Positions 6,841 to 31,636 of a DNA stretch of 64,000 nt are shown here, piece by piece; position 1 is the stretch's first letter, and each line of letters starts with the position of its first letter. Under the pieces are notes generated by a model. It was given only the letters and a program-made list of their open reading frames with translations. It made no database searches and was not told the origin of the DNA. This DNA is from Phycisphaerae bacterium (GTDB lineage: Bacteria > Planctomycetota > Phycisphaerae > UBA1845 > Fen-1342): positions 310,001 to 374,000 of the forward strand of contig JAGNKU010000002.1 of assembly GCA_017999985.1 (NCBI GenBank). The letters run 5' to 3'. Position numbers and translations under genes: made by a program.

Positions 6841-7892
6841 GACGCCTTCTCCGACAGATACTGGAAGACCTGCACCCGGCGATTGTAGCCGTCCGCCACC
6901 CAGATGCGATCCTGGGCGTCGATCGTCAGTCCCCCCGGCAGCGCGAACTCGCCCGGCCGCGCCCCCTCCTGCCCAAACGCGAGCAGCAATCGCCCGTCGC
7001 GATCGAAGATCTGGATATTCTCGAACTGGTTGTCCACGACATAGATGTGCTGATCGGAATCCACCGCCACCGCGCGCGGCCGCGCGAAATCGCCAGCGGC
7101 GTCGCCCTTCTGCCCGAAAACACGCACCGGCGTAGCGTCCGCGCCGAAGACCTGCACGCGGAAATTCATGGCATCGGCCACGATGAGACCGATATCGGGT
7201 TGCGCGGCCAGCGCCGTCGGGAAGTTGAACTGTCCGGGCGCGCTGCCGCGTTGTCCGACGCGCTGTTCCAGCGTCCGCCAATCCGTCGTCGCAAAGCATG
7301 CATGCGCCGCCGCGTCCGCCAGCCAGAACCGCCGCCCGCGGGCATCCCAGGCAATCGCCACCGGCGCCGTCAGCTCCGGCCAACGGTGCGTCGCGCGCCA
7401 CCGGCCGTCCAGATCGAACACGTCCACGGCTGCGCGCCCGCGATCTACCACGTACAACTGCGTGCCATCGCCGACGCTCACATCGATCGGAACACGCAAC
7501 GGATCGCTTGGCGACCCGCGAATCGTCGTGTACCGGCGGGCGGCAAGATCGAGGAGGTGCACGCTGCCGAGCCCGGTATCCGCCACGAAAACGCGTTCAC
7601 CGGCCACAGCGACCGCTGCCGGACGCGAGAATTCGGCCTGTGCCCGCGGGCCGGCAAGCGCCGCCTGAAACGCTTCCCAGCCACTCGGCCGCGCGCCAAG
7701 GCTGGCCTCGCCGCGCAGCTCGCCGATGTAGCGGATGCGCGGCCGGTCGGGCGGCGCGGGCCAGACGATCGGCGGTGAGACCGTGGGGAAGATCGGGCCG
7801 GACGGTGCCTGGCAGCCGGCGAGCAGCACGGCGCAGCCCATCGCCGCCAGCAGACCGGCACGCACGACCGCGTTGTGTCGCAGGGCGCTCAT
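6837..7892 (-). CDS. NHL-repeat beta-propeller lipoprotein
   Basis: 351 residues. A lipoprotein signal ends at VLLAGC (Cys27), followed by a six-blade-like NHL propeller. Repeated blades are visible as FSRPAAVAV...VFVADTG, FNFPTALAA...LIVADAMNFRVQVF, FARPRAVAVD...IYVVDNQFENIQIF and FALPGGLTID...IWVADGYNRRVQVF. There is no haem motif. Both ends are translationally coupled: the start overlaps the stop of the barrel gene as ATGA, and its own stop overlaps the start of the 12-haem gene the same way. NHL propellers are protein-protein or ligand platforms rather than redox centres, so a structural or docking role at the outer membrane is likely. Two other NHL proteins in this island are fused directly to haem domains. 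Confidence 0.88.
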   Translation of the reverse strand: MSALRHNAVVRAGLLAAMGCAVLLAGCQAPSGPIFPTVSPPIVWPAPPDRPRIRYIGELRGEASLGARPSGWEAFQAALAGPRAQAEFSRPAAVAVAGERVFVADTGLGSVHLLDLAARRYTTIRGSPSDPLRVPIDVSVGDGTQLYVVDRGRAAVDVFDLDGRWRATHRWPELTAPVAIAWDARGRRFWLADAAAHACFATTDWRTLEQRVGQRGSAPGQFNFPTALAAQPDIGLIVADAMNFRVQVFGADATPVRVFGQKGDAAGDFARPRAVAVDSDQHIYVVDNQFENIQIFDRDGRLLLAFGQEGARPGEFALPGGLTIDAQDRIWVADGYNRRVQVFQYLSEKAS

Positions 7893-10009
7893 TCGGCCCC
7901 CTTGCTGATGATCGGGATCTCGCGCTTCAGCTTGAGCCAGAACGACATGTCGCCGTCGCGCGAGCCCGGCAGATCGAGCATGTCATACTCGGCCTCGAAG
8001 CGCAGGGAAAAATAGCCCAGCCGCCAATCCACCGCCGCGCTGAGGTCCACGCCGTTGGTGATGCCGTTCAGCGAATCGTCCTCGTAGCGATAGAAGGCGC
8101 TGGCATTCGCCTCCAGGTTCGGCGCCAGCAGGTAACGGTACGAGCAGCCCAGGTCCAGCAGTGTCGTGTTGTGCGCCTCCAGCTCATCCGCCCCGCGGAA
8201 TCGAAAATGCGACAGCGTACCCCTGCCGTCCAACTGGTTCCGGGCGCTTTGCCACAGCACCACGTCGCCGTTGCTGTGCATGGCCTGGTACGGATCGAGC
8301 GCATCGTCGTTGTATTCATACTCCAGCCCCACCGACCAGCCCCGCCGCCGATAAGTGGCCCCGACCCGCTGCCGGTTCACGTCGCGCTCGCGAAACGCCA
8401 GGTAACGCACCGCGTTGTGGTCCTCGTTCTGGAATGAACCCGCGTAGTAGGGCGTCAGCCCGAACTGGAATTCCTGCTGCAGGCGGAAATCAAAGCGGTC
8501 GCGCCGCAGGCTGTAGTCCTGGTAGACGCGGTATGTGTAGCTGACCAGCACCGTCTGGCGATCGGTGATCTGCCCCGTGACCACCCGCCGTAGCGCCGTG
8601 TAGCGTCCCATGCGCAGGATCACGTAATCGCGCGCCGGCAGATACGTGCGCGTCCGCCCGGCGTCGGTGACGACAATGCTCCAGACATTCACGTCCGTCT
8701 GTGCCAGGTACGCCGGCAGCGGGTCGCGCAGCGTCACCGACTCGCCGATGACAATCCCCCCGCGGTCGCCGTGCCGCGTCTCGGTCGCGGTGTGGTTGTA
8801 CGTCGCATTCGCCGAGAAGCGGCCCCACGCGTTGTCCTGCGCGAAGGCGCTGTTCAGGACGCCGCCCCACTCGCAGAAATCCGCGTTGTAGTCCTGCTGC
8901 TGCTGCAGGCCGTAGAGCTGCGCCGAGGTGGTCAGCCACTGTCCGAGCTGGTGCGCCAGGCCAGCCTCGCCGCGCCAAGTCTCGGTCGTGAGCTCCTGGA
9001 ACGAGTCGCGCAGGTATTGGACGCCGTAGTTGCTCGCCAGTGAATCCGTGTGCTGCAGGCGCAGCCGCGTGGAGAGCTCCGCATTGTCGCGGGCCAGGTC
9101 GCCGGCCTCGTCCTGCAGCCGCGCCAGCGTCTCCCACGCGCTCTTGCCGTCGGGGCCGAAGCGCAGCACGTGGTTCAGGTTCAGGTAATGCCGCGTCGTG
9201 TCATAGCGCGTCCGGCTGCCCGAGTACAGCTCATGCCGATCGTTGTACTCGTAATCGACCCGCAGGGCGTGGTTCGGGCTGATCTGCCAGGTGCCCTCGT
9301 AGCGGAACATGTCGGTGCCGCGCTGCTCGTCATCCGACAGCTCCCGCGTGCGGCTGGTCAAGTCGTCCCAGGTGTGCTCAAAGGTGAAACGCATGGGGAA
9401 CTTCGCATTGTTGACAGACAGCCCGCCGCCGTACCGTTCGTACGTGCGATCCAGGCTGGGCTGGAACATCCGCGGCACACGGCTGTCGAGCCGTTGGGCA
9501 TAGGCGTTGCCTGAGATCACCCCGCGCGGCAGAAAGGTCAGGTTCACGTCGTATTCGAGCAGCGTGCCGTCGGAACCCTGGTCGTCGTCCGGCCCGGGCC
9601 GCGACTCGCTGAACCACTCCTGCGTCAGCCCGTAGCGCGCCGCGATGTCGTACAGCAGGAATTGCTCGCCGAACAGGCTCCCCGCAGTGTTCAATCCCAG
9701 CGTCTCTTCCAGCCGCCGGGCACGGTTGATCTGCTTCGCCGAGTGCGGCACAGGATTGCGATAGTCATAGTCCACGTCACGCCGGTCGAACTCGAGATCG
9801 AACCCCAACTCGAGCGCCAGGCGCCGCATCTCCAGAATGGACCGCGGCGGGCGGACCTCGCCGGCGGGCTGCGAAGTCGGCGCCGCCCGGCTGTCTGCCT
9901 CGGCGGGCTGCGTGTCTTGTCCGGCGGCAGGCGTTCCCGCGCCGGCGAGCCCTACCAGCCAGCCGGCCGCGCAGAGCATTCCGCCGGTAGAAATGACCCT
10001 TCGCGACAT
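7889..10009 (-). CDS. Putative outer-membrane beta-barrel (porin of a cytochrome conduit)
   Basis: 706 residues with a signal peptide (MCAAGWLVGLAGAG region, mature end near AAGQDTQP). After a short low-complexity linker the protein is rich in alternating aromatic and polar strands, such as NHALRVDYEYNDRHELYSG, WSVGLEYEYNDDALD, and NLEANASAFYRYEDDS near the end, the pattern of a large transmembrane barrel. It has no CXXC pair like MtrB and no haem motif. It is the first gene of an ATGA-coupled operon with the NHL lipoprotein and the 12-haem cytochrome, which is the logic of porin-cytochrome conduits (MtrCAB, OmbB-OmaB-OmcB). I do not recognise the exact family. The last residue is Glu, not the Phe expected by the classical BAM signal. 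Confidence is good for barrel, moderate for conduit. Confidence 0.7.
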   Translation of the reverse strand: MSRRVISTGGMLCAAGWLVGLAGAGTPAAGQDTQPAEADSRAAPTSQPAGEVRPPRSILEMRRLALELGFDLEFDRRDVDYDYRNPVPHSAKQINRARRLEETLGLNTAGSLFGEQFLLYDIAARYGLTQEWFSESRPGPDDDQGSDGTLLEYDVNLTFLPRGVISGNAYAQRLDSRVPRMFQPSLDRTYERYGGGLSVNNAKFPMRFTFEHTWDDLTSRTRELSDDEQRGTDMFRYEGTWQISPNHALRVDYEYNDRHELYSGSRTRYDTTRHYLNLNHVLRFGPDGKSAWETLARLQDEAGDLARDNAELSTRLRLQHTDSLASNYGVQYLRDSFQELTTETWRGEAGLAHQLGQWLTTSAQLYGLQQQQDYNADFCEWGGVLNSAFAQDNAWGRFSANATYNHTATETRHGDRGGIVIGESVTLRDPLPAYLAQTDVNVWSIVVTDAGRTRTYLPARDYVILRMGRYTALRRVVTGQITDRQTVLVSYTYRVYQDYSLRRDRFDFRLQQEFQFGLTPYYAGSFQNEDHNAVRYLAFRERDVNRQRVGATYRRRGWSVGLEYEYNDDALDPYQAMHSNGDVVLWQSARNQLDGRGTLSHFRFRGADELEAHNTTLLDLGCSYRYLLAPNLEANASAFYRYEDDSLNGITNGVDLSAAVDWRLGYFSLRFEAEYDMLDLPGSRDGDMSFWLKLKREIPIISKGAE

Positions 10010-18021: not shown

Positions 18022-19542
18022 TTACTCCGGCTTCGGCGGCCCCGGCAGCGGATCCTTCAACCCTACGGCCGCCCAGAACGCCGGCACGCCGTGGCAGGCC
18101 TCGCAGCCCAGCGCCATCTCCTTCGGCGCGACCTCGTGGCTGACTTTGAGGTACATGACGGTCTCAGGGAATCCGTAGGTTCCGGTGAACGGAATCCCCG
18201 TGTACGCCGCCCCGTCCGCGAGCGCCAACCCCCAGTCAAACTCGACCCAATACGGATTCGCGCCGCCGGCCGTGCCAAACAGGTGCGGCACGCTCAGCCG
18301 CTTGGCCAACGTGTCCGCCGGCTGCCGGCCCACCATTTTCTTGAACGGGTAGATTTTCGCGTCCGCGTCATCCTTCGTCGCCGCCGGCTCGGCGATGACC
18401 ACCGGGTCTTCCGCGGTACCCGCCACCGTGTACGTATCGCTCACGCCGATGATCATCCGCCGCCACAGGTCGTTGTGCCAGCGATACTCCGGCTGCACGC
18501 CCTTCGCCCACACGAACGTGCCCTTCTGCTTGTCGTACGTCGGCTGGCCGAGTTCATCCGTCGGAATCGGGCTGATGTCCTGGCCGGCCGTATCCCAATA
18601 CCACGCCACCTTCGTCGGCTTGCTGCGCGCGAAGGCCGGAATATGGCACGTTTCGCAGGCTACGCGCGCCAGGTGCGCGTTCAGCAACGGATCGACCGGC
18701 GGGTTCGCCGTGTGCACGTCGGTATCCCCGTGGCAGCGTGTGCACGCCGGCGCCGCCCCGCCCTCGTTCACCGAATGCAGCGCAAAGCCGGCGATGCCGT
18801 GATTCTGTTCCGTATGGCACTCCTGGCACGCGAAATCCAGTCCGCCCATATGCACATCCATCTCGCGCGTCGGGCTGGCCAGATCGGACGACATGTCGCC
18901 ATGCTTCACGTTGTCGCCCCCGCCGGCGTAGAAATGACAGAAGCCGCAGTTGCGCCGCGTCGGCGGCCCCACCTTGTACGCGACCTGCTGCAGTTCGTCG
19001 GGGCCGACCACCGTTACTTGACCTTCGTTGACGAGCGCCGCCGCCCCACCCCCACCGCCATCCGTCGGGTGCTTGGCATACGTACCCGTTGTGTCGTGAC
19101 AGATGAAGCAATCGACCTGCGCCGTGCTCGTGAAGTCGAACGTGTCATCCTTCCAGCCATAGCTCGGATGGCACTGCGCGCAGCGCCCCTCGTTGGACGG
19201 TACCGCGATGCAGAAGTTGTTCAGCAGATCACGCTTGCCGTGCGTTTCCGTTTCGTGCCCGACGATGTTCACGGACGCCCCCGCCCACTGCCAGTGCCCG
19301 CTCTCCAGCAGGTCCGCCGCCACATCCGCATGGCAGATCTGGCATGTCGCCGGCCCCTCGTACCCCCCGGGGACAACCTCCGTCAGGAAGCGTTCGTGAT
19401 CGGTCTTTTCCACCGGCGTATTGCCATCCGGCGGTGAATTCCCGTCCGGCACGCCGTCGTCGGGCGGACACCCCCCCAGTGCCCCCAGCCCCGCGATGCC
19501 GAGCCCCGTCAAGGTGACGATCAGGCAGTATCGCAGAGACAC
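18022..19542 (-). CDS. Octahaem cytochrome, tetrathionate reductase (OTR) family, lipoprotein
   Basis: 506 residues. I use the GTG at 19542, which has GAGGAG 6 bases upstream and a lipoprotein signal ending LGALGGC (Cys25). Eight CXXCH motifs: CQICH, CAQCH, CFICH, CGFCH, CQECH, CTRCH, CETCH and CEACH. The stretch NEGRCAQCHPSYGWKDDTFDF followed by VDCFICHDTTGTYAKHP is the hallmark of octahaem tetrathionate reductase proteins. Characterised members reduce tetrathionate, and in vitro also nitrite and hydroxylamine. The haem spacing and the length fit the family; here the protein is lipid-anchored. It is convergent with the beta-helix gene, separated by only 21 bases, and 191 bases downstream of the OmcA/MtrC-like gene on the same strand. 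Confidence 0.9.
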   Translation of the reverse strand: MSLRYCLIVTLTGLGIAGLGALGGCPPDDGVPDGNSPPDGNTPVEKTDHERFLTEVVPGGYEGPATCQICHADVAADLLESGHWQWAGASVNIVGHETETHGKRDLLNNFCIAVPSNEGRCAQCHPSYGWKDDTFDFTSTAQVDCFICHDTTGTYAKHPTDGGGGGAAALVNEGQVTVVGPDELQQVAYKVGPPTRRNCGFCHFYAGGGDNVKHGDMSSDLASPTREMDVHMGGLDFACQECHTEQNHGIAGFALHSVNEGGAAPACTRCHGDTDVHTANPPVDPLLNAHLARVACETCHIPAFARSKPTKVAWYWDTAGQDISPIPTDELGQPTYDKQKGTFVWAKGVQPEYRWHNDLWRRMIIGVSDTYTVAGTAEDPVVIAEPAATKDDADAKIYPFKKMVGRQPADTLAKRLSVPHLFGTAGGANPYWVEFDWGLALADGAAYTGIPFTGTYGFPETVMYLKVSHEVAPKEMALGCEACHGVPAFWAAVGLKDPLPGPPKPE

Positions 19543-19733
19543 GCACGTCTCCTCATTGAGCTGAGTCAGCGCGAGCCTTCCCGCGGCTGCGCGCGGACAT
19601 GCCACTGGCTGTGGTAGTCCAATCGCCCCCGCAAGTCAACGCCCCCCGTGCCAGCAAGACGCAGGGCAGGGAAGACTCCCTGCCCTGCGGTGATTCCAGG
19701 TGTGCCGTCGCTTCCGTTACGCCCGCCGGTCGA

Positions 19734-22070
19734 CTACGGAACCGCGTGGCTCCGCTCCACCGAGAATGTCTTGCCGTCGCCGTGGCAGACCGCGCAGCCT
19801 TCCTGGCCCACGCCGAGCGTGTTCAGCTCGACGTGCACGGCCGTCGCGGTGGAGTCGTGGCACGACGTGCAGGCGACCTTCCAGATGCTGACGTCGTTGC
19901 GTTCCACCGGTGTCTTCCACGCATCCGTCGCGTGGCACGCCACGCAATTCGCCGGCCCGTTGGGCATCACCGGGGTGAATGCTGTCGAAAAGTCGGCGAC
20001 GTTGTTGCCGAATCCGACGAGGTCGTACACGCCTCCGTCCTGCACGACGCTCAGCGCGCGCGCCGCGTGAATCTTGTGGATCATGATCTTGAAGTCGATC
20101 GAATCCGCCTCGGGCGCCTGCGTCTGACCCTCGGCGACGTTCGGACGATCCTCCGCGCCCGCCGTGTGGCACATTACACAATTCTCAACACTCTTGCGGC
20201 CATTGCCGTGGAAGCGGAGATCGCCGTGGCAGGCGTTGCACTTCGCGTCCGTGACAAAGCCCGGATAGTCCCCCGCCGCGCCGGAGCCGGCGGTGTTGAT
20301 GCGGACGCCAAACAACCCTGGCTCCGACGTCTCGCGATAGGTGGTGTCGCCAAGCGTGAATTGCCGGTACGCATACACCATGATCGTGTAGGACCCCGCC
20401 TTCAGATTCTGGCCGCTCAACTCGCCCCAGCCGTCGGCATAGGTGAACGCCGCCGAGTCGTTCAGTGGCGCCGGATACGTCGCCGGAATCGCCGCCGGGC
20501 TGGTGTACACGAACGGTCCGGTCCCCGTCGCGGGCACGCCACCCGTCATCGTCACCACGCCCTCGTTGGAGGTGGCCTTGATCGCGGCCGTCGAGCCCGC
20601 CACCGGCAGGATCTTCTGGTAGTTCACCGTCGGACCGGCCATGACGAAGTTCACCGACCACAGATCTTCCATGTCAACGGGGTCATCGTTCGCATCGAGT
20701 ACGCGGAACGTGACGATCGGCGCATCTCCGACCGCGAAGAACCCATCGCCGCTGTTGCCCTCCACGGAGTCGATCACAACCTTCAGGCCCAGGATGTTGT
20801 CGGGGTTCGACAGCGGCGGCACGTGCACTACCTCCGCGTCGTACGTCATCCCGGCACCGTGGCACAACGCGCAGGATCCGTCCGCGAACTTGTGCACAAC
20901 GCCAGCCGAGTCCGACGACTTCCCCGGCGGCACGCGGTACGCCACGTTGTTCAGCTGCGTCTGCTTCAACGTGCCAAACAGCTCGTTGTCCTGATCGAGC
21001 ACCGTCCCGCTGTCGAAGTTCAGGTCATCGTGGCAGGTCGTGCAGCGCGCCTGGGTCAGGTTCGCGTCCGCGTAGATCTCGGCGCCCTGCGCCGCGCCGC
21101 CGTGACACACTTGGCAGTTCCGCATCTGCTCGTTGAAGCCGGTGCCGCCCGGCATGAACGGGAACTGCACGTGCGAGAAATCCACCACGTTCCCCTGGAA
21201 TCCGGCCACCTCGTAGAGGTAAGGGTCCGAGCCATCAGCCGTCGCGGCGACCCGGGGCAGATTCGCGCCGGTGTGCAGCTTGTGAATCATCTCGCCGAAT
21301 TCAATCGACTCGGCACCCGCGGAATCGAGCGCACCGGCGGTATGGCAGAGCACGCAGCCGGTCAGGCTGAAGCGGTTGGACCCGTGCACGGTCATCTGCA
21401 CGTGGCAGATGTTGCAGTTGGCCTGCGTCACGAACTCGCGCGCCGTCGGCGTCGCGCCGCCAACCGCGAAGTCGAACGTCGCATCGCCGGCCTTGCGGAC
21501 GCTCTCACCGTCCACGGTGAAGGTCCGCCGTGCCTCGATTCCTACGGTGTAAGTACCGGCGGCGACGGTGCCGCCGCCGCCCGACGGCGCGTTCACGGGC
21601 TTGGCGTACGTGGTGGGCAGATTGCCCAGCGCGTAGGTGTAGCTTCCGTCGGCGTTGGTCGTGACCTTCGTCAGGTCGCCCTCCGGCACGATCACCCGCT
21701 GGTAGCCCTCGGTCGGCCCCGACACGTAGATCGAGAACCGGTCGAGCTCCTCGATCGCAATCGTATTGCTGCTGCCATCCTGGATCGTGAACGTCACGTT
21801 CACCGGACCGCCGAGTTCGACCGGGCTGCTGCCACTCACATCCGTAATGGTGACGACCGTGTCCGGAAGCGTATCTCCGGCTGCGAGGCCCGGATCGCCC
21901 TGCGGACCCGTTGCACCCGTCGGCCCCGCCGGCCCCGTCGGACCCTCCGGACCCGTCGGACCCGTCGGACCCTCCAACAGGCCGCCTGGACAGCCGCCGA
22001 GCATCAGGCTCAGCGCCGCGATGATGCTCAATCCGACGCCTGTACGCAACATTGCCGAGCTGCGCCTCAT
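19734..22070 (-). CDS. OmcA/MtrC-family decahaem c-type cytochrome, lipoprotein
   Basis: 778 residues from ATG 22070, preceded by AGGAG. The lipoprotein signal ends SLMLGGC (Cys27). A short collagen-like run of GPT/GPA triplets follows (about 34-60). Beta-rich domain I leads to a first pentahaem group (CNICH, CVLCH, CQVCH, CTTCH, CALCH, from residue 219). A second beta domain (LGLKVVIDSVEG onward) leads to the second pentahaem group (CNACH, CVMCH, CVACH, CTSCH, CAVCH). This alternation of split beta-barrels and pentahaem domains is the architecture of OmcA and MtrC, surface terminal reductases of Shewanella. It implies a surface-exposed cytochrome and makes an extracellular electron route very likely. 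No MtrA or MtrB is directly beside it; the barrel operon at 5137-10009 may serve. Confidence 0.93.
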   Translation of the reverse strand: MRRSSAMLRTGVGLSIIAALSLMLGGCPGGLLEGPTGPTGPEGPTGPAGPTGATGPQGDPGLAAGDTLPDTVVTITDVSGSSPVELGGPVNVTFTIQDGSSNTIAIEELDRFSIYVSGPTEGYQRVIVPEGDLTKVTTNADGSYTYALGNLPTTYAKPVNAPSGGGGTVAAGTYTVGIEARRTFTVDGESVRKAGDATFDFAVGGATPTAREFVTQANCNICHVQMTVHGSNRFSLTGCVLCHTAGALDSAGAESIEFGEMIHKLHTGANLPRVAATADGSDPYLYEVAGFQGNVVDFSHVQFPFMPGGTGFNEQMRNCQVCHGGAAQGAEIYADANLTQARCTTCHDDLNFDSGTVLDQDNELFGTLKQTQLNNVAYRVPPGKSSDSAGVVHKFADGSCALCHGAGMTYDAEVVHVPPLSNPDNILGLKVVIDSVEGNSGDGFFAVGDAPIVTFRVLDANDDPVDMEDLWSVNFVMAGPTVNYQKILPVAGSTAAIKATSNEGVVTMTGGVPATGTGPFVYTSPAAIPATYPAPLNDSAAFTYADGWGELSGQNLKAGSYTIMVYAYRQFTLGDTTYRETSEPGLFGVRINTAGSGAAGDYPGFVTDAKCNACHGDLRFHGNGRKSVENCVMCHTAGAEDRPNVAEGQTQAPEADSIDFKIMIHKIHAARALSVVQDGGVYDLVGFGNNVADFSTAFTPVMPNGPANCVACHATDAWKTPVERNDVSIWKVACTSCHDSTATAVHVELNTLGVGQEGCAVCHGDGKTFSVERSHAVP

Positions 22071-22272
22071 GGCCGTTCTCCTTCGCGATTTGCGCTCGCA
22101 ACTTCCTGACATGTGCCCGTTGAGTCGTATGTTATCGCGCGAAGGGTGCAATGCAATGCAAACTTGCGCGCTCCGCGCCGGCCACGTCAGTATGCTCCGG
22201 AACGCGCCAGCACCGCAATCCTCCCCAGCGGGGGATCTCCTCCCCCTTAGGGGGGAGCCGACTGCGTACTGT

Positions 22273-22938
22273 TCAGAGGTTGTTACGGACCGCGTAGCTC
22301 ACCGCCGCCGCGCGCGAGCACAGCGCCAGCTTGCGGTAAACGCTCTTCAGATGTGAACGCACCGTCGAGGACGATACGCCGATTTCCGAGGCGATGACAT
22401 CGTTGCGCAACCCGCGCCCCACCAACCGCAGCACCCGCAATTCCTGCCCGGTCAGGCCCGCCGGCGGCCCGTCGTCCGCCGCGCCGCCCGCCATGCCGAT
22501 CAGACGGTGCGCGACCGCCTGCGAAAGCCGTACCTGCACGGCTCGGTCGTCCGTGACATCACAGAACAGCAGCGCGCGCCCGATCAGCGCACCGTCCGGG
22601 CTGTAACACCGCGACGCATTGGCCTTGAGATCGGCGCGCTGCGGCCAGCGCAGCGCGATGTCCGCCATGTGGTGCCCCTCCATTTCACCGGCGTCACGCC
22701 AGAACGCGGCCAACTGCGGGTCTTTCAGGACCTGGCCGACCGCGTGTCCGACGCATTGCGCGCGCGGCGCCCCCAGGACGTGCTCGGCTGCGCGATTCAA
22801 CCACACCACCCGTCCCTGCGTGTCCACCAGCACCAGGCCGATCGACAGGCCCGCCACCGCCTGCGCCAACAAACAGGCATCCTCGCAATCCTGCCCTCGC
22901 GGCGATTTCCCGGCCGGCATGCGGCTGCGCGCAATCAT
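22273..22938 (-). CDS. PAS-domain LuxR-type transcriptional regulator
   Basis: 221 residues, starting at ATG 22938 after GAGAGGG. The N-terminal half is PAS-like: SIGLVLVDTQGRVVWLNRAAE, then LLFCDVTDD at the end of the fold. The C-terminal half is a LuxR/FixJ helix-turn-helix (LTGQELRVLRLVGRGLRNDV, then IASEIGVSSSTVRSHLKSVY). It has no receiver domain and no visible haem- or flavin-binding signature. It is transcribed divergently from the CbcL-like operon across a 97-base gap, and lies upstream of the decahaem gene on the same strand, so control of electron-transfer genes is a reasonable guess. Longer in-frame extensions toward 23157 would run into the opposite gene. Confidence 0.85.
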   Translation of the reverse strand: MIARSRMPAGKSPRGQDCEDACLLAQAVAGLSIGLVLVDTQGRVVWLNRAAEHVLGAPRAQCVGHAVGQVLKDPQLAAFWRDAGEMEGHHMADIALRWPQRADLKANASRCYSPDGALIGRALLFCDVTDDRAVQVRLSQAVAHRLIGMAGGAADDGPPAGLTGQELRVLRLVGRGLRNDVIASEIGVSSSTVRSHLKSVYRKLALCSRAAAVSYAVRNNL

Positions 22939-23035
22939 GTTCTGGCCCTCTCGCGTACACCACCAACCGTCGATTATAGTTACCGCCACGTCACGCGGCC
23001 TCCACGGCCGGAGTTTTTCTCCGAGACGAGGCGCC
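22939..23035. promoter_or_regulatory. Divergent control region with small hairpin
   Basis: 97 bases between the PAS-LuxR gene and the CbcL-like gene. TTATAGT near 22976 could be a -10 element for the rightward operon. CGGAG-TTTTT-CTCCG (23009-23023) is a 5-bp inverted repeat close to the start codon, preceded by two direct CGGCC copies. Either could be a regulator site; neither is a known operator that I can name. Confidence 0.35.
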
Positions 23036-24931
23036 ATGTCTGAGCACCGGTCCAGCTTTCTGCCCCGCACGCAGCGCCGCCGCTCATGGCCCTGGCTCGC
23101 GGTGCTGTTCCTGCTGGCTCCGCTGCCGCCAGCCGCGCGGGCGGGCGACCCGGACAACTGCCTGCTTTGCCACCAGTTTCGCGGACTCAGCCGCTACGAC
23201 CCCGCGGCCGACCGCGCGCACCTGTTCTTCGTCGATCCGGACTACACTCATGAGCTCCGCGGCCCGCACGCCCGGCTCGCCTGCACGGCGTGCCACGCGC
23301 GCAGCGAAGTCGGTGTCGTGCCGCATGGCGCCGTCTCCCGCGTGAACTGCACGCAGACCTGCCACCTCAGCGCCGCGGGCCAGCTCGACCGCCGCTTCAG
23401 TCACGAAAACGTCGCCTGGCTCCTCGATCGCGGCGCACACACACATGCTGTGCTCAGCAGCCTGACCTTCACCGGCGGACCCTTGCTGGCGCCCGGCCAG
23501 TCCCCCTGCCTGTACTGCCACGACGAGCCGGTCTTCCGCGACCCCGCCAACGTGGTGACCACGCTGTCGCCACGTGATGACCGGACTTTCGACCGCTGCG
23601 ACGTCTGCCATGCCGAGCAAGTCCCCATCGATGTCGCCTACTACCTGCGGCATATCGCGGCCCGGCTCCAGTCCGCCCGGCCCCCGCTCGAGATCGCCCA
23701 GGTCTGCGCCGTCTGCCACACGGACCCCGACGTCCTCAAGACGTTTGAGATGCCCAACGCCGTCGCCAGCTTCGTCCGCAGCTTCCACGGCAAGGCCGCG
23801 CTGCTCGGCGACAACACGACCGCCGACTGTCTCGCCTGCCACGTCGCCGCCGGCGAGAACGCGCACCTCATGCTCGCCAAGGCCGACCCGCGTTCGTCTG
23901 TCCATCCCGCCAACGTCGCCAACGCCTGCCGCAGCACCGCCTGCCATCCGGGCGCCGACCCGCGCTTCGCCGCCGCCGCCGTGCACCTTGACCTGCCCAC
24001 CGCCCGCGGCACGCTCGAATTCGCCGTCGCGGCGGCGTTCATTCTGCTGACCATCGGTACGTTCGGCCCGTCGCTGCTGCTCTGCCTGCTCGAGCTGGCC
24101 CAGATCGTCTTCGGCCGCCGGCATGAGGGCGAGCACGCCGCCCTGCAGCTCGTGCAGGCAGTGCTGGCCCACCCCTACGGTCGCACGCGTTTGGCGCGCT
24201 TCACGGTCAGCCAGCGCTACCAGCACTGGGTCCTGGTCGTGCTCTTCACCACGCTCGCCGTCACCGGCTTCCCCATGAAATTCGCCGATCACGACTGGGC
24301 CCGCGGCGTGATTGAGACGCTCGGCGGCCTGCGCGTCACCCGCACGATTCACCACTGGGCCGGCATCGCCCTTGTGCTCGGCTTCGCCGCGCACTTCGTC
24401 TATTGCCTGCACACGTACTGGCGGCGCGCCCGCGAACGCGGCCCCGCCGGCGGACGCGTCGGCCTCTGGGCGGCGATCTGGAAGCTCCCGATGGTCGTCC
24501 ACCCGCGCGACCTGCTGAAAGGGCATCATCTGCTGCTCTATCTCTGCGGCCTGCGCCGTGAGCCGCCTTCGTTCGGCCGCTTCAGCATCAAGGAAAAATT
24601 CGAGTACATCGGCGTGTTCTGGGGCACGACGCTGCTGGGGCTCACCGGCGCCCTGCTGTGGGGCGAGCAAATCTTCTCCCACTACCTCAGCGGCCGCATC
24701 CTGAACATCGCGCTCATCGCCCACACGTACGAGGCCTTCCTGGCCATCATCCACGTCGGCATCCTGCACATCGTCAACGTCATCTTCTCGCCGCACGTCT
24801 TCCCCCTCTCGCTCGCCACGATCACCGGCGACACCCCGCTCGGTGAACTGGCTGCCACCCACTCCGAGTTCGTGGCGGAGGCCGCCCGCGACCTGAACGT
24901 CCAACTCCCAGCGGAGGCACCCCATGAGTAA
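23036..24931 (+). CDS. CbcL-like fusion: octahaem cytochrome c plus b-type cytochrome
   Basis: 631 residues from ATG 23036, just after GAGG. A signal peptide (WPWLAVLFLLAPLPPAARA) leads to a periplasmic domain with eight haem motifs between residues 42 and 305: CLLCH, CTACH, CTQTCH (CX3CH), CLYCH, CDVCH, CAVCH, CLACH and CRSTACH (CX4CH). From about residue 320 an integral domain of the cytochrome b561/FdnI-HydC type follows (RYQHWVLVVLFTTLAVTGFP, RTIHHWAGIALVLGFAAHFV, HTYEAFLAIIHVGILHIVNV), with several in-membrane His suited to two b haems. Geobacter CbcL has the same fusion and oxidises menaquinol for low-potential extracellular acceptors. The function here is by analogy. The stop overlaps the next start by 8 bases. 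Confidence 0.87.
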   Translation: MSEHRSSFLPRTQRRRSWPWLAVLFLLAPLPPAARAGDPDNCLLCHQFRGLSRYDPAADRAHLFFVDPDYTHELRGPHARLACTACHARSEVGVVPHGAVSRVNCTQTCHLSAAGQLDRRFSHENVAWLLDRGAHTHAVLSSLTFTGGPLLAPGQSPCLYCHDEPVFRDPANVVTTLSPRDDRTFDRCDVCHAEQVPIDVAYYLRHIAARLQSARPPLEIAQVCAVCHTDPDVLKTFEMPNAVASFVRSFHGKAALLGDNTTADCLACHVAAGENAHLMLAKADPRSSVHPANVANACRSTACHPGADPRFAAAAVHLDLPTARGTLEFAVAAAFILLTIGTFGPSLLLCLLELAQIVFGRRHEGEHAALQLVQAVLAHPYGRTRLARFTVSQRYQHWVLVVLFTTLAVTGFPMKFADHDWARGVIETLGGLRVTRTIHHWAGIALVLGFAAHFVYCLHTYWRRARERGPAGGRVGLWAAIWKLPMVVHPRDLLKGHHLLLYLCGLRREPPSFGRFSIKEKFEYIGVFWGTTLLGLTGALLWGEQIFSHYLSGRILNIALIAHTYEAFLAIIHVGILHIVNVIFSPHVFPLSLATITGDTPLGELAATHSEFVAEAARDLNVQLPAEAPHE

Positions 24932-26039
24932 GCCCGCTGCTTACCGTCGCTCCGCCCGCGACTGGCTCTGCCTCCTCGGCCGCTTCGGTCTCGAGTCCGT
25001 CCGCCGCAGCTATGCCGTCGCGGTCATTGCCGTCGTGGCGTGGCTCAGCTTTCTCGCCCTGCGCTACCTCGTCGTCACATTGATGTTCCCGGCGCCCGCC
25101 CCGGCCCAGATCACCGGCATCCCCACCCGCCTGACCGAGTCGGTGCTCCGCACGGACAGAAGCGCATGGCGCGGCGTCACCACGGACGCCAACCCGCGCA
25201 CGCCCCCCGCGCACTACCACCGCATCGCGGGCTGGATTCAACCCGATCGCTTCAACGGCTGCACCACGAGCGGCTGCCACGATCCGCTGCCACACGCCCG
25301 CCGCAAGGAGGTCCGTGCTTTCCTTAACATGCACGCCACGAGCCTGCACTGCGGCGTGTGCCACCTGCCGCGCGACGAGCAGCCGCTCACCCTCACCTGG
25401 TATGACCTGGGCCGCGGCGCGCCGCGCGGCGCCCCCGAGGTCGTGCAGCTCTACGCCTGGCTGACCTCGGAACAGGGCCGCGCCGCGCTGGCCGACCCGA
25501 CGCCGGCAATCCAGGCCGAGCTGGTCGCCAGGGTCCGCGAGGCCGCCCGTCAGGCCGACCACGCCCGGGCGCTGGTTGACCTGGCGGACCAGCTAGCGGC
25601 CGAACGCCACAGCAGTCCGGCCTTTGCCGCCCTGGTCGAGACCGCCCGCACGATCCTGCCACGCCATTTCCGCGGCGAGTACGGCGCCAAGCTGGCCCTG
25701 CTGGACCGCACCACAAAAACGCCGACTCTCGGATACGTAGGCACACAGGCCGCCAACGAGGCATATCTGCGCGAGGCCCCGCAAGCTGATGCCGCCCGGC
25801 GGGCACAATTGCTGGCCGCCGTGCATCCGGCGTTGCGCACCCCGACGCTGCACTGCACGGACTGCCACCGCACCCCGGGCATGCTCTTCGACTTCGCTGC
25901 CGCTGGTTATCCCGCGGCACGGATCGAGATGCTCTCGCAGCCCGTGATCTTCCAGATGATCGAGCACATCGCCGCCGGCCAGCCCTTCTACCTCCCCAGC
26001 TTCGTCATCCCAACCACTCAGCCAAGAGATCCGCAGTGA
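24924..26039 (+). CDS. Membrane-anchored trihaem cytochrome
   Basis: 371 residues with one N-terminal transmembrane anchor (AVAVIAVVAWLSFLALRYLV, about residues 32-51). Three haem motifs are spread widely: CTTSGCH (CX4CH, about residue 111), CGVCH (about 140) and CTDCH (about 312). The middle 150 residues are helical and haem-free (rich in Ala, Arg and Glu). No family is recognised. Translational overlap with the CbcL-like gene suggests that it is a partner, perhaps taking electrons from the octahaem domain. RIAGWIQPDRFNGCTTSGCH shows the first motif in context; the wide-spaced motif makes automated haem counts likely to miss it. Confidence 0.8.
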   Translation: MSKPAAYRRSARDWLCLLGRFGLESVRRSYAVAVIAVVAWLSFLALRYLVVTLMFPAPAPAQITGIPTRLTESVLRTDRSAWRGVTTDANPRTPPAHYHRIAGWIQPDRFNGCTTSGCHDPLPHARRKEVRAFLNMHATSLHCGVCHLPRDEQPLTLTWYDLGRGAPRGAPEVVQLYAWLTSEQGRAALADPTPAIQAELVARVREAARQADHARALVDLADQLAAERHSSPAFAALVETARTILPRHFRGEYGAKLALLDRTTKTPTLGYVGTQAANEAYLREAPQADAARRAQLLAAVHPALRTPTLHCTDCHRTPGMLFDFAAAGYPAARIEMLSQPVIFQMIEHIAAGQPFYLPSFVIPTTQPRDPQ

Positions 26040-26504: not shown

Positions 26505-28337
26505 TCACTCCCGCGTCAACTGCCCCATCACGTCATCCAGGTCGCGCACGCTCAGATCGAGCAGATACAGCGCGTAGTTCTTGTTGTGGATCCCGTTGCC
26601 CGCCTTGATGAACTGCACATTTTGTCGGGCGGGCGTAATCCGCGTCTCGATGTCCGCCGGCAGCTCGATGCCGCGCGCCTGCAGATCCGCGATCCGCTGA
26701 TCGACACGTACCAGCGCCGCCTCCGCTTCCTGCACGTACGTCGCGATCTCGCTGCGCCACTGCTCGAACAACCGCTCGTAGTCACTGCCGTGACACGCGA
26801 TGCACGTCGCCTCCGACGCCTTCACGAGCGCGTCGCCCTTCAGATCGACCGCCGGCTTGATGTGGCAGCCCGTGCAATTCAGCCGCGAGCCGAACATCGC
26901 ATTCGGCATCGGCCGCAGCGCGCCGGTGCCGCCGATCCCCATGAGCAGCTCGACCTGCTCGTGGTGATGGTTCGGGTGGCAATGCTGGCAATCATCGAGA
27001 ATGGGCTGCAGGAACCCCGCGCTCGTCCCGACGTGCGTCGCATCGATCAGCTTATGCTCGATCGCCCGGTGACAGTCCACGCACCGGGCCCACTGACCCG
27101 CGACGTGCGTCTGGTGATACCGCGCCACCGTCTCGGTGTCGCGCGTCGCGAAATCCACCAGATACTTCTCTTGATCGTGGCAGTTCGTGCACGTGCGTTC
27201 CGACACGACCGCCGCGCCCTGGATCACGTCCAGGTGACAGCTCGCGCAGTCGATCTTGCGGTCCACGATTTCGCGGTGGTCCATCAGCGCCGGCCCCGGG
27301 GCCGACGTGGTCGGAAACTGCTGCTGCCAGCTCGCCAGCACCGCCTGATCGTGGACGAGAATCTTGCGCGTCGGCGGCGCGTGGCACTTCAGGCATTCAC
27401 CCGTGTCGCGATTGAACGCCTGGTTGCCGAAGTGGCACGTGAAGCACGTCTCCAGGTCCACCGCCATCACGTGCGCCAGCCCCGACGGATCGTAGCTGTG
27501 GCACGCAGCGCAGTTGAGCCCCCCCAATTGCCGCAGACGCGTCCGCTCGTGCTCCAGCCGCGCGTACTCCAGTACGTCCGCCAGCAGGTCGTCTCGCGCC
27601 AGACCCCCCACCAGCTCGCGCAACTTTGCCTCACGCCGTTCCGCCGGCCCCACCTGCACCGCCGCGACGCGCAGCGGCTCGAAAGCCGCCGGTGACACCG
27701 CCTGCTCGAGCCGTTGCCGCAGGCCCGCGAGTGACGCCTCGGTCTCCGTCAGCTTCAGCTCCGTCCGCAGGTGCTTTTCATGCACGAATGTGACCGTCGG
27801 CAGACGAGTGACCTCCGTCTCCTGATCGCCGACCAGGCGTTTCTCCACGCGCGGCTCGCCGATCAAGAGCGGCTTGCGCATGTACTCGTTGTCGCCATGA
27901 CAAGCCGACCTCAGGCAACTTGCGTCATTGACGCGCGCCCGTGGCCGGCTCGTGCCGTAGCGCCCGCTGAAGTAACTGGCGACCTGCGACAGCCCCCTGA
28001 ACTTCGCCTTGAGCGTGTGCTGCTCGCCCGGCGCGTAATGACACTCCACGCACCACGTCCCCACCTTCTTGCCATGCACATCCTGGCTCCACGACTGGTA
28101 GTAGGAGTCCATGATGTGGCATGTCCCGCAGAAACTCGGCCGTGCCGTGTAGTACTCCGCCCCCCCGATGCCCAACACCCCCAGCACGACGATCACGCCG
28201 CCGATGAGCAACCCCTTGCGCAGCACGCGGCGCCATCGTGGCCGCGCCGGCCTCCCCCTCGGCGTCGCCGCGTCACGCGCCGGAACGTCCCCCGCCGCTG
28301 CAGAATCGCCCGCATGCTGCGCATCATCCGTGGACAT
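26505..28337 (-). CDS. NapC/NirT-type quinol dehydrogenase extended to 12 haems
   Basis: 610 residues from ATG 28337 (a longer upstream in-frame start is possible; no clear ribosome site). One transmembrane anchor (LLIGGVIVVLGVLGIGG, about 42-60) precedes a NapC/CymA-like start, PSFCGTCHIMDSYYQSW and WCVECHYAPG. The haem motifs are CGTCH, CVECH, CLRSACH (CX4CH), CAACH, CFTCH, CLKCH, CASCH, CTNCH, CVDCH, CQHCH, CTGCH and CIACH, between residues 70 and 516. A helical, probably coiled insert lies at about 165-255, and a haem-free helical tail of about 95 residues ends the protein. NapC and CymA have four or so haems and oxidise menaquinol; here the same module seems to continue into its own periplasmic wire. 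Confidence 0.85.
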   Translation of the reverse strand: MSTDDAQHAGDSAAAGDVPARDAATPRGRPARPRWRRVLRKGLLIGGVIVVLGVLGIGGAEYYTARPSFCGTCHIMDSYYQSWSQDVHGKKVGTWCVECHYAPGEQHTLKAKFRGLSQVASYFSGRYGTSRPRARVNDASCLRSACHGDNEYMRKPLLIGEPRVEKRLVGDQETEVTRLPTVTFVHEKHLRTELKLTETEASLAGLRQRLEQAVSPAAFEPLRVAAVQVGPAERREAKLRELVGGLARDDLLADVLEYARLEHERTRLRQLGGLNCAACHSYDPSGLAHVMAVDLETCFTCHFGNQAFNRDTGECLKCHAPPTRKILVHDQAVLASWQQQFPTTSAPGPALMDHREIVDRKIDCASCHLDVIQGAAVVSERTCTNCHDQEKYLVDFATRDTETVARYHQTHVAGQWARCVDCHRAIEHKLIDATHVGTSAGFLQPILDDCQHCHPNHHHEQVELLMGIGGTGALRPMPNAMFGSRLNCTGCHIKPAVDLKGDALVKASEATCIACHGSDYERLFEQWRSEIATYVQEAEAALVRVDQRIADLQARGIELPADIETRITPARQNVQFIKAGNGIHNKNYALYLLDLSVRDLDDVMGQLTRE

Positions 28338-28425
28338 AGCGATATCCAAACACTCGGAGTTCACGCGGGCAGCAAATGTGTATTCTGCCCGTCTCGGTCG
28401 GTCGCCGCGGCCACGCCACATACTC

Positions 28426-28492: not shown

Positions 28493-31400
28493 ATGCTGCG
28501 TCCTGGCAACCTGGCACACGTCGCCCGCGCTGCCGCGTTTCTCGCTATCACGTCCGCCAGCAACGCCGCTCCGCCTGAGCCACCCGCGCGGTTTGTCGCC
28601 ACTCCGGTGCTCACGTTCCAGTACGACGGCCCGCCCGCACTCCACATGCCCACCGCCGTCGCCATCGGGCCCGGCGGCGACGTGTACGTCACCGACGGGG
28701 CCCTGGACCGCATCGTGGTCTTCGCGCCCGACGGTTCGCTCCGTGAAGAATTCCAGACCGTCGGCGAAGAAACCCTCGCGCAGCCCATCAGCCTCAAGTT
28801 CGACCGCCAAGGCATCCTCTGGATCGCCGACACCGGCCACGGTCGCGTCCTCGCCCGTAACCCGGACGGCAGCCTCGCCCGCGTGATCCGCTGCCCGCCC
28901 GCGCCCGACGCCAGACACTCCCCGGACATCACCGATGTGGCCGTCAACGCCGACGGCACCCGTATCTGGCTGGCCGACAACGACAATCACCGCTTGCTCC
29001 GCTATGACGTCGCCGGCGCGACCTTCAGTTCGACCGGCGAGCGCGGCCAATCGCTCGGCCAGCTCTACTACCCATTCATGCTCGCGCTGGGTCCCACCGG
29101 CGATGTCTTCGTCAGCGAGCCCGTCACCGGCCGCGTTCAGATCTTCGACGCCGCCGGCCGCGTCGTGCGCAGCCTTGGCACGTACGGCGCGGACCTCGGC
29201 CAGTTCTACCGCCCCAAGGGCATCGCGATCGATGCCGACGGCAACGCCTGGGTCGTCGACGGCACGCTCGGCGTCGTGCAGGTTTTCCGGCCCACCGGCA
29301 GCCTGCTCGGCGTTCTGTGTGAGCCAGGCGGCCAGCCCTTGAAGCTCGTCTCCCCGGCCGGCATTGCGTTTGACGCCGACGGCAACCTGTACGTTGCCGA
29401 AGTCTCGGCGCACCGCGTCCACAAATTCGCCCTCAAAGTGGATCCCGACGTCGCGCCACCCATGCTGCCGCGCCGTACGACCGTTACCCCGCTGCAGCCG
29501 CAGGCGTGCGCTGTCTGTCATCTTGAGTGGCTCGAACCTCTGGCGCGCGGTGTGACAACCGCGATCATGGCCCCGCCGACAACCACGCCCGAACATCCGG
29601 TCGCCAGCCGGCCGGAAATGTGCCTCTCCTGCCACGATGGCGCGGTCGTGGATTCGCGCCGCCGGATCTGGCTTGAGCACGGTCACAGCACGGACATCCT
29701 GCCGCCACCGACGATGCAGGTACCAGACTTCCTCCCGCTCGTGAACGGCCGGATCGAGTGCCGCACGTGCCATTCCGCCCACGCCGCCGGCCAACCCATG
29801 GGCGATATCGCGACGGCGGTGTTCCTGCGCGTCGCCAACCGCGCCAGCGAGCTGTGCATGAGCTGTCACGCCGACAAGACGGGCGGCCGCGCGGCCGGCA
29901 CGCATCCCACCGGCGGTATGCCCTGGGCCATCCCCGAGGCGCTGGTGCAAGCCGGCGCCCAGGTCGGCCCCGACGCGCGCGAGCTGACGTGCCAGGTCTG
30001 CCACACGCCGCACGGCGCCCGCCATGACCACTTGCTCGTCATGGGCACCGAATCCAGCCAGCTCTGTGTCACCTGTCACGATCAGATGCGGCCTGGCATG
30101 TTCCGCGACGGCGGACCGGCGGAGCACCCGCTCAGCCCAGTCGTGAACGCCGAGCAGGCCGCGGCCATCCGCGAACTCGGCACGCAGCTCGGCCCCGGCG
30201 AGCACCTCATCTGCCTGTCATGCCACAAGCTGCACCACGGCAAAGGCGAGCGCTTCCTCCTCGCCGACGACCTGACGGACGGTCAGATGTGCCTGCGCTG
30301 CCACTCCGACAAGCAGAGCGTCGTCGCGACGCACCATGACCTGCGCACCAACTTCCCCGAGGAGCGCAACCGTCTGGGCATGACCGCGCACACCGGCGGC
30401 CCGTGCAGCTCCTGCCATCTCTTCCACCGCTACGCACGCGCGCCGGAGGCCAGCGAACTCGACCCCGGTGGCGGCAAGTGCATCACCTGCCACCAGCCCG
30501 AGCGCCCCGCACAGACCAAGATCCTCGGCTCCGCCAATCACAGCCCGATCGGCTGCACCAAGTGCCACGATCCGCATACCGGCCAGTTCGGCCAATTCAT
30601 GCACGACGCACCTTACGTCGTCTGCACGCAGTGCCACACAGATCAGGCCGGGCTCGGCGGCGGCCCGCACGATGTCACGCGCGCATCGCCATCCTGGCCC
30701 GTTGCCTCCACGGCCATCGGCGATCGGTGCCTGGCTTGCCACCGCCCCCACGGCGACGACCAGACCGGTCGCTTCCGCGCCGGCCTCGCCGCCGACGCAC
30801 CCGTCGGCGAAGCCTCCTGCCTCGCGTGTCACCGAGCGGTTGGCCCGGACGCGCAGGCCCCGCTCGCCCTGCTGCATCCGCGCGACGTGACCGCGCAGTC
30901 AACGGCCACCGAAGTGCCGCTGTCGACCGGCGGCGAACGCAACGAACGCGGGGAACTCGCCTGCCGCAGTTGTCACGACCCGCATCGCGGTCGCGGCGCT
31001 TCCGAAAAGCTCGTTCGCGTTGCGGCCGGCGACAGCCCGCAAAAAGCCTGCACCAACTGTCATGCCGAAATGACCAACCTGCACGCGATCGGCCATGCCG
31101 CCGGGGTGCTGCGGGCGGCCGGTTTTGAGCCGGGCACCTGCGGCCCATGCCACGTTCCGCACGGCCGCCGCGATGACATCGAGCCGCGCTTTCTGTGGCC
31201 GAAGAAGCTCGAGTTCGTCATGGACGCTGCTGATCCACTGCGGGTGGCGAACCAGCATTGCGTAGCCTGCCATCACACGGGTGGCCCGGTCGCGCCCCCG
31301 GCCATCGCCACGCACCCACCCGCCGAGATGTTCAACGCCACCGCCCCCGACGCCTCCGGCTACCTGCCGCTGTTCAACGAGCGCGGCGAAGTCGACCCGC

Positions 31401-31636
31401 AAGGCAAGATCGCCTGCCGCACCTGTCACCTCACGCATGGCCGGCAGACGGCTGCCCCCTTGCCACCGGCGCTCGGCGAAATCGCCAGCCGGGAGCTGCG
31501 CGCCCGCCAGTGGCATATCCGCTCATTCACCGCCAACGCCGTCTGCACGACCTGCCACGGCACCGATGCGCTGCGCCGTTTCATGTACTTTCACGACGCG
31601 GCCCGGCGCGGCGGACCCATCGCCGGTGGCCGCTGA
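28493..31636 (+). CDS. NHL propeller fused to a 20-haem cytochrome
   Basis: 1047 residues from ATG 28493, after GAGG. A signal peptide (AAAFLAITSASNA) leads to an NHL propeller at about residues 35-325 (LHMPTAVAIGPGGDVYVTDG, LYYPFMLALGPTGDVFVSEP, FYRPKGIAIDADGNAWVVDG). Twenty CXXCH motifs follow between residues 339 and 1022, about one per 34 residues, all canonical. Many are in paired-CXXCH form (CLSCHDG, CTKCHDPH, CRSCHDPH, CQVCHTPH). There is no transmembrane segment after the signal, so it should be periplasmic or exported. The domain order equals that of the NHL-octahaem lipoprotein, which suggests duplication with haem-repeat growth. It is divergent from the NapC-type gene. Function is inferred as a long electron wire. 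Confidence 0.9.
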   Translation: MLRPGNLAHVARAAAFLAITSASNAAPPEPPARFVATPVLTFQYDGPPALHMPTAVAIGPGGDVYVTDGALDRIVVFAPDGSLREEFQTVGEETLAQPISLKFDRQGILWIADTGHGRVLARNPDGSLARVIRCPPAPDARHSPDITDVAVNADGTRIWLADNDNHRLLRYDVAGATFSSTGERGQSLGQLYYPFMLALGPTGDVFVSEPVTGRVQIFDAAGRVVRSLGTYGADLGQFYRPKGIAIDADGNAWVVDGTLGVVQVFRPTGSLLGVLCEPGGQPLKLVSPAGIAFDADGNLYVAEVSAHRVHKFALKVDPDVAPPMLPRRTTVTPLQPQACAVCHLEWLEPLARGVTTAIMAPPTTTPEHPVASRPEMCLSCHDGAVVDSRRRIWLEHGHSTDILPPPTMQVPDFLPLVNGRIECRTCHSAHAAGQPMGDIATAVFLRVANRASELCMSCHADKTGGRAAGTHPTGGMPWAIPEALVQAGAQVGPDARELTCQVCHTPHGARHDHLLVMGTESSQLCVTCHDQMRPGMFRDGGPAEHPLSPVVNAEQAAAIRELGTQLGPGEHLICLSCHKLHHGKGERFLLADDLTDGQMCLRCHSDKQSVVATHHDLRTNFPEERNRLGMTAHTGGPCSSCHLFHRYARAPEASELDPGGGKCITCHQPERPAQTKILGSANHSPIGCTKCHDPHTGQFGQFMHDAPYVVCTQCHTDQAGLGGGPHDVTRASPSWPVASTAIGDRCLACHRPHGDDQTGRFRAGLAADAPVGEASCLACHRAVGPDAQAPLALLHPRDVTAQSTATEVPLSTGGERNERGELACRSCHDPHRGRGASEKLVRVAAGDSPQKACTNCHAEMTNLHAIGHAAGVLRAAGFEPGTCGPCHVPHGRRDDIEPRFLWPKKLEFVMDAADPLRVANQHCVACHHTGGPVAPPAIATHPPAEMFNATAPDASGYLPLFNERGEVDPQGKIACRTCHLTHGRQTAAPLPPALGEIASRELRARQWHIRSFTANAVCTTCHGTDALRRFMYFHDAARRGGPIAGGR

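Follow-up and report, generated by a model that had tools for sequence, protein, structure and literature searches.

The NrfH/NapC/CymA proteins (PF03264) have four haems, whereas the gene at 26505-28337 on the minus strand of the window, the 64,000-nucleotide stretch of DNA analysed here, encodes a NapC-type cytochrome of 610 residues with 12 haem sites. What such a protein does with its additional haems, and whether it takes its electrons from quinol, are the questions raised by this locus. The protein is called NapC12, a name coined here. Its gene is a single intact open reading frame starting at 28337; an alternative upstream start at 28421 gives a longer frame, and the orthologues start with an alignable MST... 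at 28337. NapC12 has 11 CXXCH motifs and one CX4CH motif (CLRSACH, residues 141-147), and every one of its 24 Cys residues lies within these 12 motifs. In 5000 shuffles of the protein, CXXCH occurs 0.05 times on average and twice at most. The 12 motifs are conserved across the 32 rows of NapC12 relatives that make up alignment A2, the sole loss being the haem-10 motif in row L053. Many planctomycete genomes have full-length relatives, which are likewise uninterrupted single frames with no internal stops, so a hidden second start codon that would split the parts is excluded for practical purposes. NapC12 is a real, conserved 12-haem NapC-type protein, and the initial annotation was right to place 12 haems on one such chain. 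No description of this family or its architecture was found in the open-access literature.

The NapC/NrfH-type head

All parts of the gene are given by their positions on the minus strand. The N-terminal part has the features of a NapC-type quinol dehydrogenase. A single transmembrane anchor helix (residues 34-64; 28146-28238), seen in the AlphaFold model and hydrophobic in every aligned row, precedes Cys70 of the haem 1 motif, CGTCHIM (28110-28130). This motif has the CXXCHxM form, and its Met76 is invariant. The haem 2 motif, CVECH (28038-28052), is followed by Lys112 (28002-28004), which aligns with Lys82 of NrfH, a position that we take to be the quinol-site Lys. Like Met76, Lys112 is invariant in 32 of 32 rows. 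The PF03264 NapC/NirT profile matches residues 43-129 with 53.7 bits against a gathering cut-off of 24.1, so that the CymA/NapC-like N-terminus proposed at the outset is confirmed by profile, anchor and haem 1 motif together. The N-terminus also matches the NrfH and TorC models. The score against the NrfH equivalog TIGR03153 is 56.3 bits, under the curated cut-off of 134.2, and the protein falls under the cut-offs of both the NrfH and the NapC equivalogs.

An alignment of the head that took in NrfH (2j7a), E. coli NapC and TorC shows what they have in common: the CXXCHxM of haem 1, haem 2, His61 of NrfH (His88 in NapC12) and Lys82 of NrfH. NapC12 differs from the NrfH/NapC/CymA proteins at two further places. 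At the NapC haem 3 position it has the CX4CH motif CLRSACH (27897-27917), and at the position of NrfH Asp89, which is Glu in NapC and Asp in TorC, it has Gln118 (27984-27986). This residue is Gln in nearly all members; L056 and L058 alone have Glu. The quinol-facing haem of NrfH has the Met of CXXCHxM as a ligand and an aspartate on its distal side (PMC8840924). The quinol-binding features expected of a NapC protein are, judged from the alignment, mostly though not fully present in NapC12: the haem 1 Met and the quinol-site Lys are retained, and the distal acid is replaced by Gln. A profile of the C-terminal half of NapC matches residues 379-432, at haems 8-9, while the CX4CH motif aligns with NapC haem 3. 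A NapC core interrupted by other sequence is therefore possible.

From the middle haems to the C-terminal module

The stretch between the head and the C-terminal module is made of haem groups and an insert. The helical insert (residues 190-272; 27522-27770), noted in the first reading of the sequence, is confidently predicted in the AlphaFold model, with pLDDT mostly above 90 over residues 192-272; the model as a whole, built without haems, has a mean pLDDT of 77.9 (moderate confidence). The insert belongs to one clade only, being found in 20 of the 32 rows, which include every member of that clade, and missing from the remaining 12. Haems 4-6 form a c7-type trihaem stretch (27381-27512) matched by PF14522, and haems 7-9, likewise c7-like, follow at 27054-27248 together with His428, in a CxDCHxxIxH sequence that resembles the haem 4 region of NapC. 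Comparison of profiles among the haem stretches supports trihaem repeats weakly, because CXXCH is common to all of them.

The C-terminal module consists of haems 10-12 (26790-26990) and a three-helix bundle (residues 519-609; 26511-26783) that carries a GIHN motif and the invariant His584. The A1 profile matches OcwA (6i5b) over profile positions 360-598 with an E value of 1.2e-8. Residues 438-610 match the folds of MccA (Z 12.5), OcwA (11.5), octahaem nitrite reductases (10.6) and NrfA (about 10), with the caution that chance alone can give a helical bundle a middling Z; the best 20 fold matches are all members of the NrfA/OcwA superfamily or close multihaem relatives. Foldseek gave no match at E<=0.001 for the whole model; its effective coverage is that of residues 438-610. 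Since the profile match agrees with the fold match, a relationship of the C-terminal part to the NrfA/OcwA/MccA superfamily is likely. OcwA itself ends in an NrfA-like three-helix bundle (PMC6703420). The haem-free tail of the initial annotation is thus present in the model and, by profile and predicted fold, is a helix bundle of the NrfA/OcwA/MccA type rather than a new element. What NapC12 shares with OcwA, MccA, NrfA and octahaem nitrite reductase is this arrangement of three haems and a bundle with a G-x-HN motif. It differs in being fused to a membrane quinol head and in having neither an obvious open catalytic haem nor CXXCK, the motif of the NrfA catalytic haem, which is absent from the protein.

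Candidate axial ligands can be counted among the invariant residues outside the motifs. In A2 these are His 88, 186, 189, 289, 354, 408, 411, 428, 458 and 584, together with Met481. By this count the 11 residues would suffice to make haems 2-12 six-coordinate. NapC12 therefore looks like a wire in which haem 1, with Met76 as a ligand, would be the sole open haem, and the count suggests that the C-terminal part has no five-coordinate active haem of the OcwA kind.

Relatives of other sizes occur in the phylum. Some other Phycisphaerae have shorter 12-haem forms that lack the insert and lie beside two 13-CXXCH cytochromes and a multihaem protein with several transmembrane segments. Forms with 16-17 CXXCH plus CX4CH are found in other planctomycetes (L129:5236-7296, L131:5763-7868, L138:6541-8577). 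In L083:4289-8308, L132:1784-6067 and L133:907-5046 a NapC12-like cytochrome follows about 25 predicted membrane segments within one fused chain; this membrane part has no Pfam match in L083 and no NCBIfam match in L083 or L133. The relatives in L134, L135, L136, L137 and L139, all in one family of the phylum, have about 420-485 residues (671 in L139), a degenerate first motif without the Met ligand and 5-haem cytochromes next to them. A plasmid search outside the phylum gave no 12-haem homologue, only a tetrahaem-sized NapC in Desulfosarcina ovata; on that plasmid (L140:3998-6016) a separate multihaem gene comes after the small NapC gene, and genes for nitric oxide reductase lie close by.

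A proposed 20-haem outlet and second quinol input

Ten multihaem genes with 88 CXXCH together lie between 5137 and 31636 of the window. Divergent from NapC12 is the gene of an NHL-repeat cytochrome with 20 CXXCH (28493-31636, plus strand), and, counting the window, 17 of the 20 informative genomes have this arrangement; of the other three, L068 and L150 have both genes in the same co-directional cluster, and in G011 they are unlinked. On the other side of NapC12, also on the plus strand, is a gene for a membrane-anchored trihaem cytochrome with two CXXCH and a CX4CH (24924-26039). Before it lies the cytochrome b/c gene (23054-24931, start codon not fixed), which encodes a cytochrome b561-type membrane domain and an N-terminal multihaem part (six CXXCH, one CX3CH, one CX4CH) and is a candidate for an alternative quinone-reactive input.

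In the window, L006, L069, L070 and L071, NapC12 sits between the trihaem and the 20-haem genes of an otherwise contiguous set of cytochrome b/c, trihaem and 20-haem genes; in seven loci without NapC12 (L141-L147) this set is an unbroken operon. The cytochrome b/c gene is near NapC12 in the window, L006, L066, L068-L071 and L150. In G008, G015, G030, G034 and G038 it is distant and NapC12 is still beside the 20-haem gene, and in G021, a genome that is 87% complete, NapC12 is present and the cytochrome b/c protein is represented only by a distant relative. Because the operon occurs without NapC12, and NapC12 and the 20-haem gene occur without a linked cytochrome b/c gene, NapC12 is best seen, from these gene orders, as an add-on quinol input to the same 20-haem outlet. 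The suggestion that fusion removes the need for a diffusible partner finds no support: the 20-haem cytochrome nearly always adjoins NapC12, and the cluster has further cytochromes, one of them small, with 4 CXXCH. The quinol of the host is likely to be menaquinone, as the genome has two genes of the MqnA/MqnD family (PF02621).

Other parts of the cluster can be described briefly. An 11-CXXCH cytochrome, an NHL lipoprotein and a 696-residue barrel follow one another at 5137-9979. The last (7889-9979, minus strand) is predicted to be a large outer-membrane beta-barrel, with MtrB ranking second among its PDB matches, which also include LptD and TonB-receptor barrels; nothing in the genome matches the MtrB/PioB family PF11854. 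The three genes look like a porin-cytochrome module whose barrel has no named family. This barrel is present in 29 of 41 relatives, and in L065 and L068 the barrel, NHL lipoprotein and 11-haem genes are in one stretch with the NapC12 chain. Two proteins with lipobox-like starts are an octahaem of the tetrathionate reductase family (18022-19605; 451 bits, cut-off 375) and a decahaem of the OmcA/MtrC family (19734-22151; 292 bits, cut-off 209). A regulator of PAS-LuxR type, encoded at 22273-23157, recurs beside these clusters in L068, L141 and L143.

Proposed electron flow through NapC12

The favoured reading, with a probability of roughly 0.58, makes NapC12 a quinol dehydrogenase that is anchored in the membrane, has a haem wire of its own and serves as an optional second input to the 20-haem outlet. 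Menaquinol would be oxidised at the NrfH-like haem 1, and electrons would pass along haems 2-9 to the terminal trihaem and helix-bundle module, which would serve for docking or dimerisation instead of working as a reductase. The electrons would then move from this end to the divergently encoded 20-haem cytochrome and on to the outer-membrane cytochromes of the cluster, while the cytochrome b/c protein would be the other quinol input feeding the same outlet. Quinol oxidation by NapC12 and an outward direction are both likely; the order of electron flow and the docking partner are those that we infer. A fuller version, in which c7-like trihaem stretches connect a quinol head with an NrfA/OcwA-type end that is no longer catalytic, making a 12-haem wire from membrane to periplasm, sharing the 20-haem outlet with cytochrome b/c as an optional second quinol input, is tentative, with odds somewhat short of even.

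Two points count against a quinol dehydrogenase, the Gln at the position of NrfH Asp89 and the cytochrome b-type quinone-reactive candidate that is often adjacent. They are also the basis of a different reading, in which the cytochrome b/c protein oxidises quinol and NapC12, not reacting with quinol, is a membrane-tethered haem hub; the operons of the short NapC12 forms, where multihaem membrane proteins with several transmembrane segments come before the NapC12 gene, fit this reading too. It is nevertheless unlikely: the haem 1 Met and the quinol-site Lys are retained, NapC12 stays beside the 20-haem gene in genomes where cytochrome b/c is distant or, as in G021, has only a distant relative, and the cytochrome b/c operon occurs without NapC12. 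A chain running inwards, from an extracellular donor through NapC12 to quinone, is distinctly improbable. Homology gives no direction here, since CymA-type and CbcL/MtoC-type proteins are reported from organisms that reduce Fe(III) and from others that oxidise Fe(II) (PMC6295460), but the probable menaquinone favours low-potential outward flow, and the surface-type OmcA/MtrC and octahaem proteins of the cluster resemble terminal reductases. Least credible of all is a fused NrfH-NrfA-type enzyme whose C-terminus is a working terminal reductase for nitrite, hydroxylamine or a similar substrate. In its favour, the C-terminus resembles OcwA, NrfA, octahaem nitrite reductase and MccA in sequence and fold, and OcwA reduces nitrite (PMC6703420); against it are the missing CXXCK motif, the invariant His and Met residues, enough for the axial sites of haems 2-12, and a conserved neighbour that is another cytochrome.

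The favoured quinol dehydrogenase with its own wire has several partial counterparts. In the pentahaem TorC, too, a NapC head is lengthened within one chain, but there one haem motif is added after the NapC part, while NapC12 has eight more haem sites and an NrfA/OcwA-type end. ImcH of Geobacter is likewise an inner-membrane multihaem quinol oxidase serving extracellular electron transfer. It has three transmembrane segments, a CX3CH first motif and 6-10 haems (PMC6295460), and the single transmembrane helix and CXXCHxM first motif of NapC12 exclude identity with it. ImdcA of Thermincola, an inner-membrane decahaem for which oxidation of the quinone pool has been proposed (PMC7911101), is a functional analogue from a Gram-positive system with 10 haems, likened here by description and not by sequence.

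On the favoured reading, the NapC class would comprise not only four-haem donors but also a wire in one piece from quinol to periplasm, and, to judge from the C-terminal module of NapC12, a fold of the reductase type may have been taken over as an end-piece that carries haems. The gene orders suggest two interchangeable quinol inputs with one outlet, an idea comparable to ImcH and CbcL in Geobacter, and they supply defined gene sets with which it can be tested. Together these features point to extracellular electron transfer in uncultured planctomycetes.
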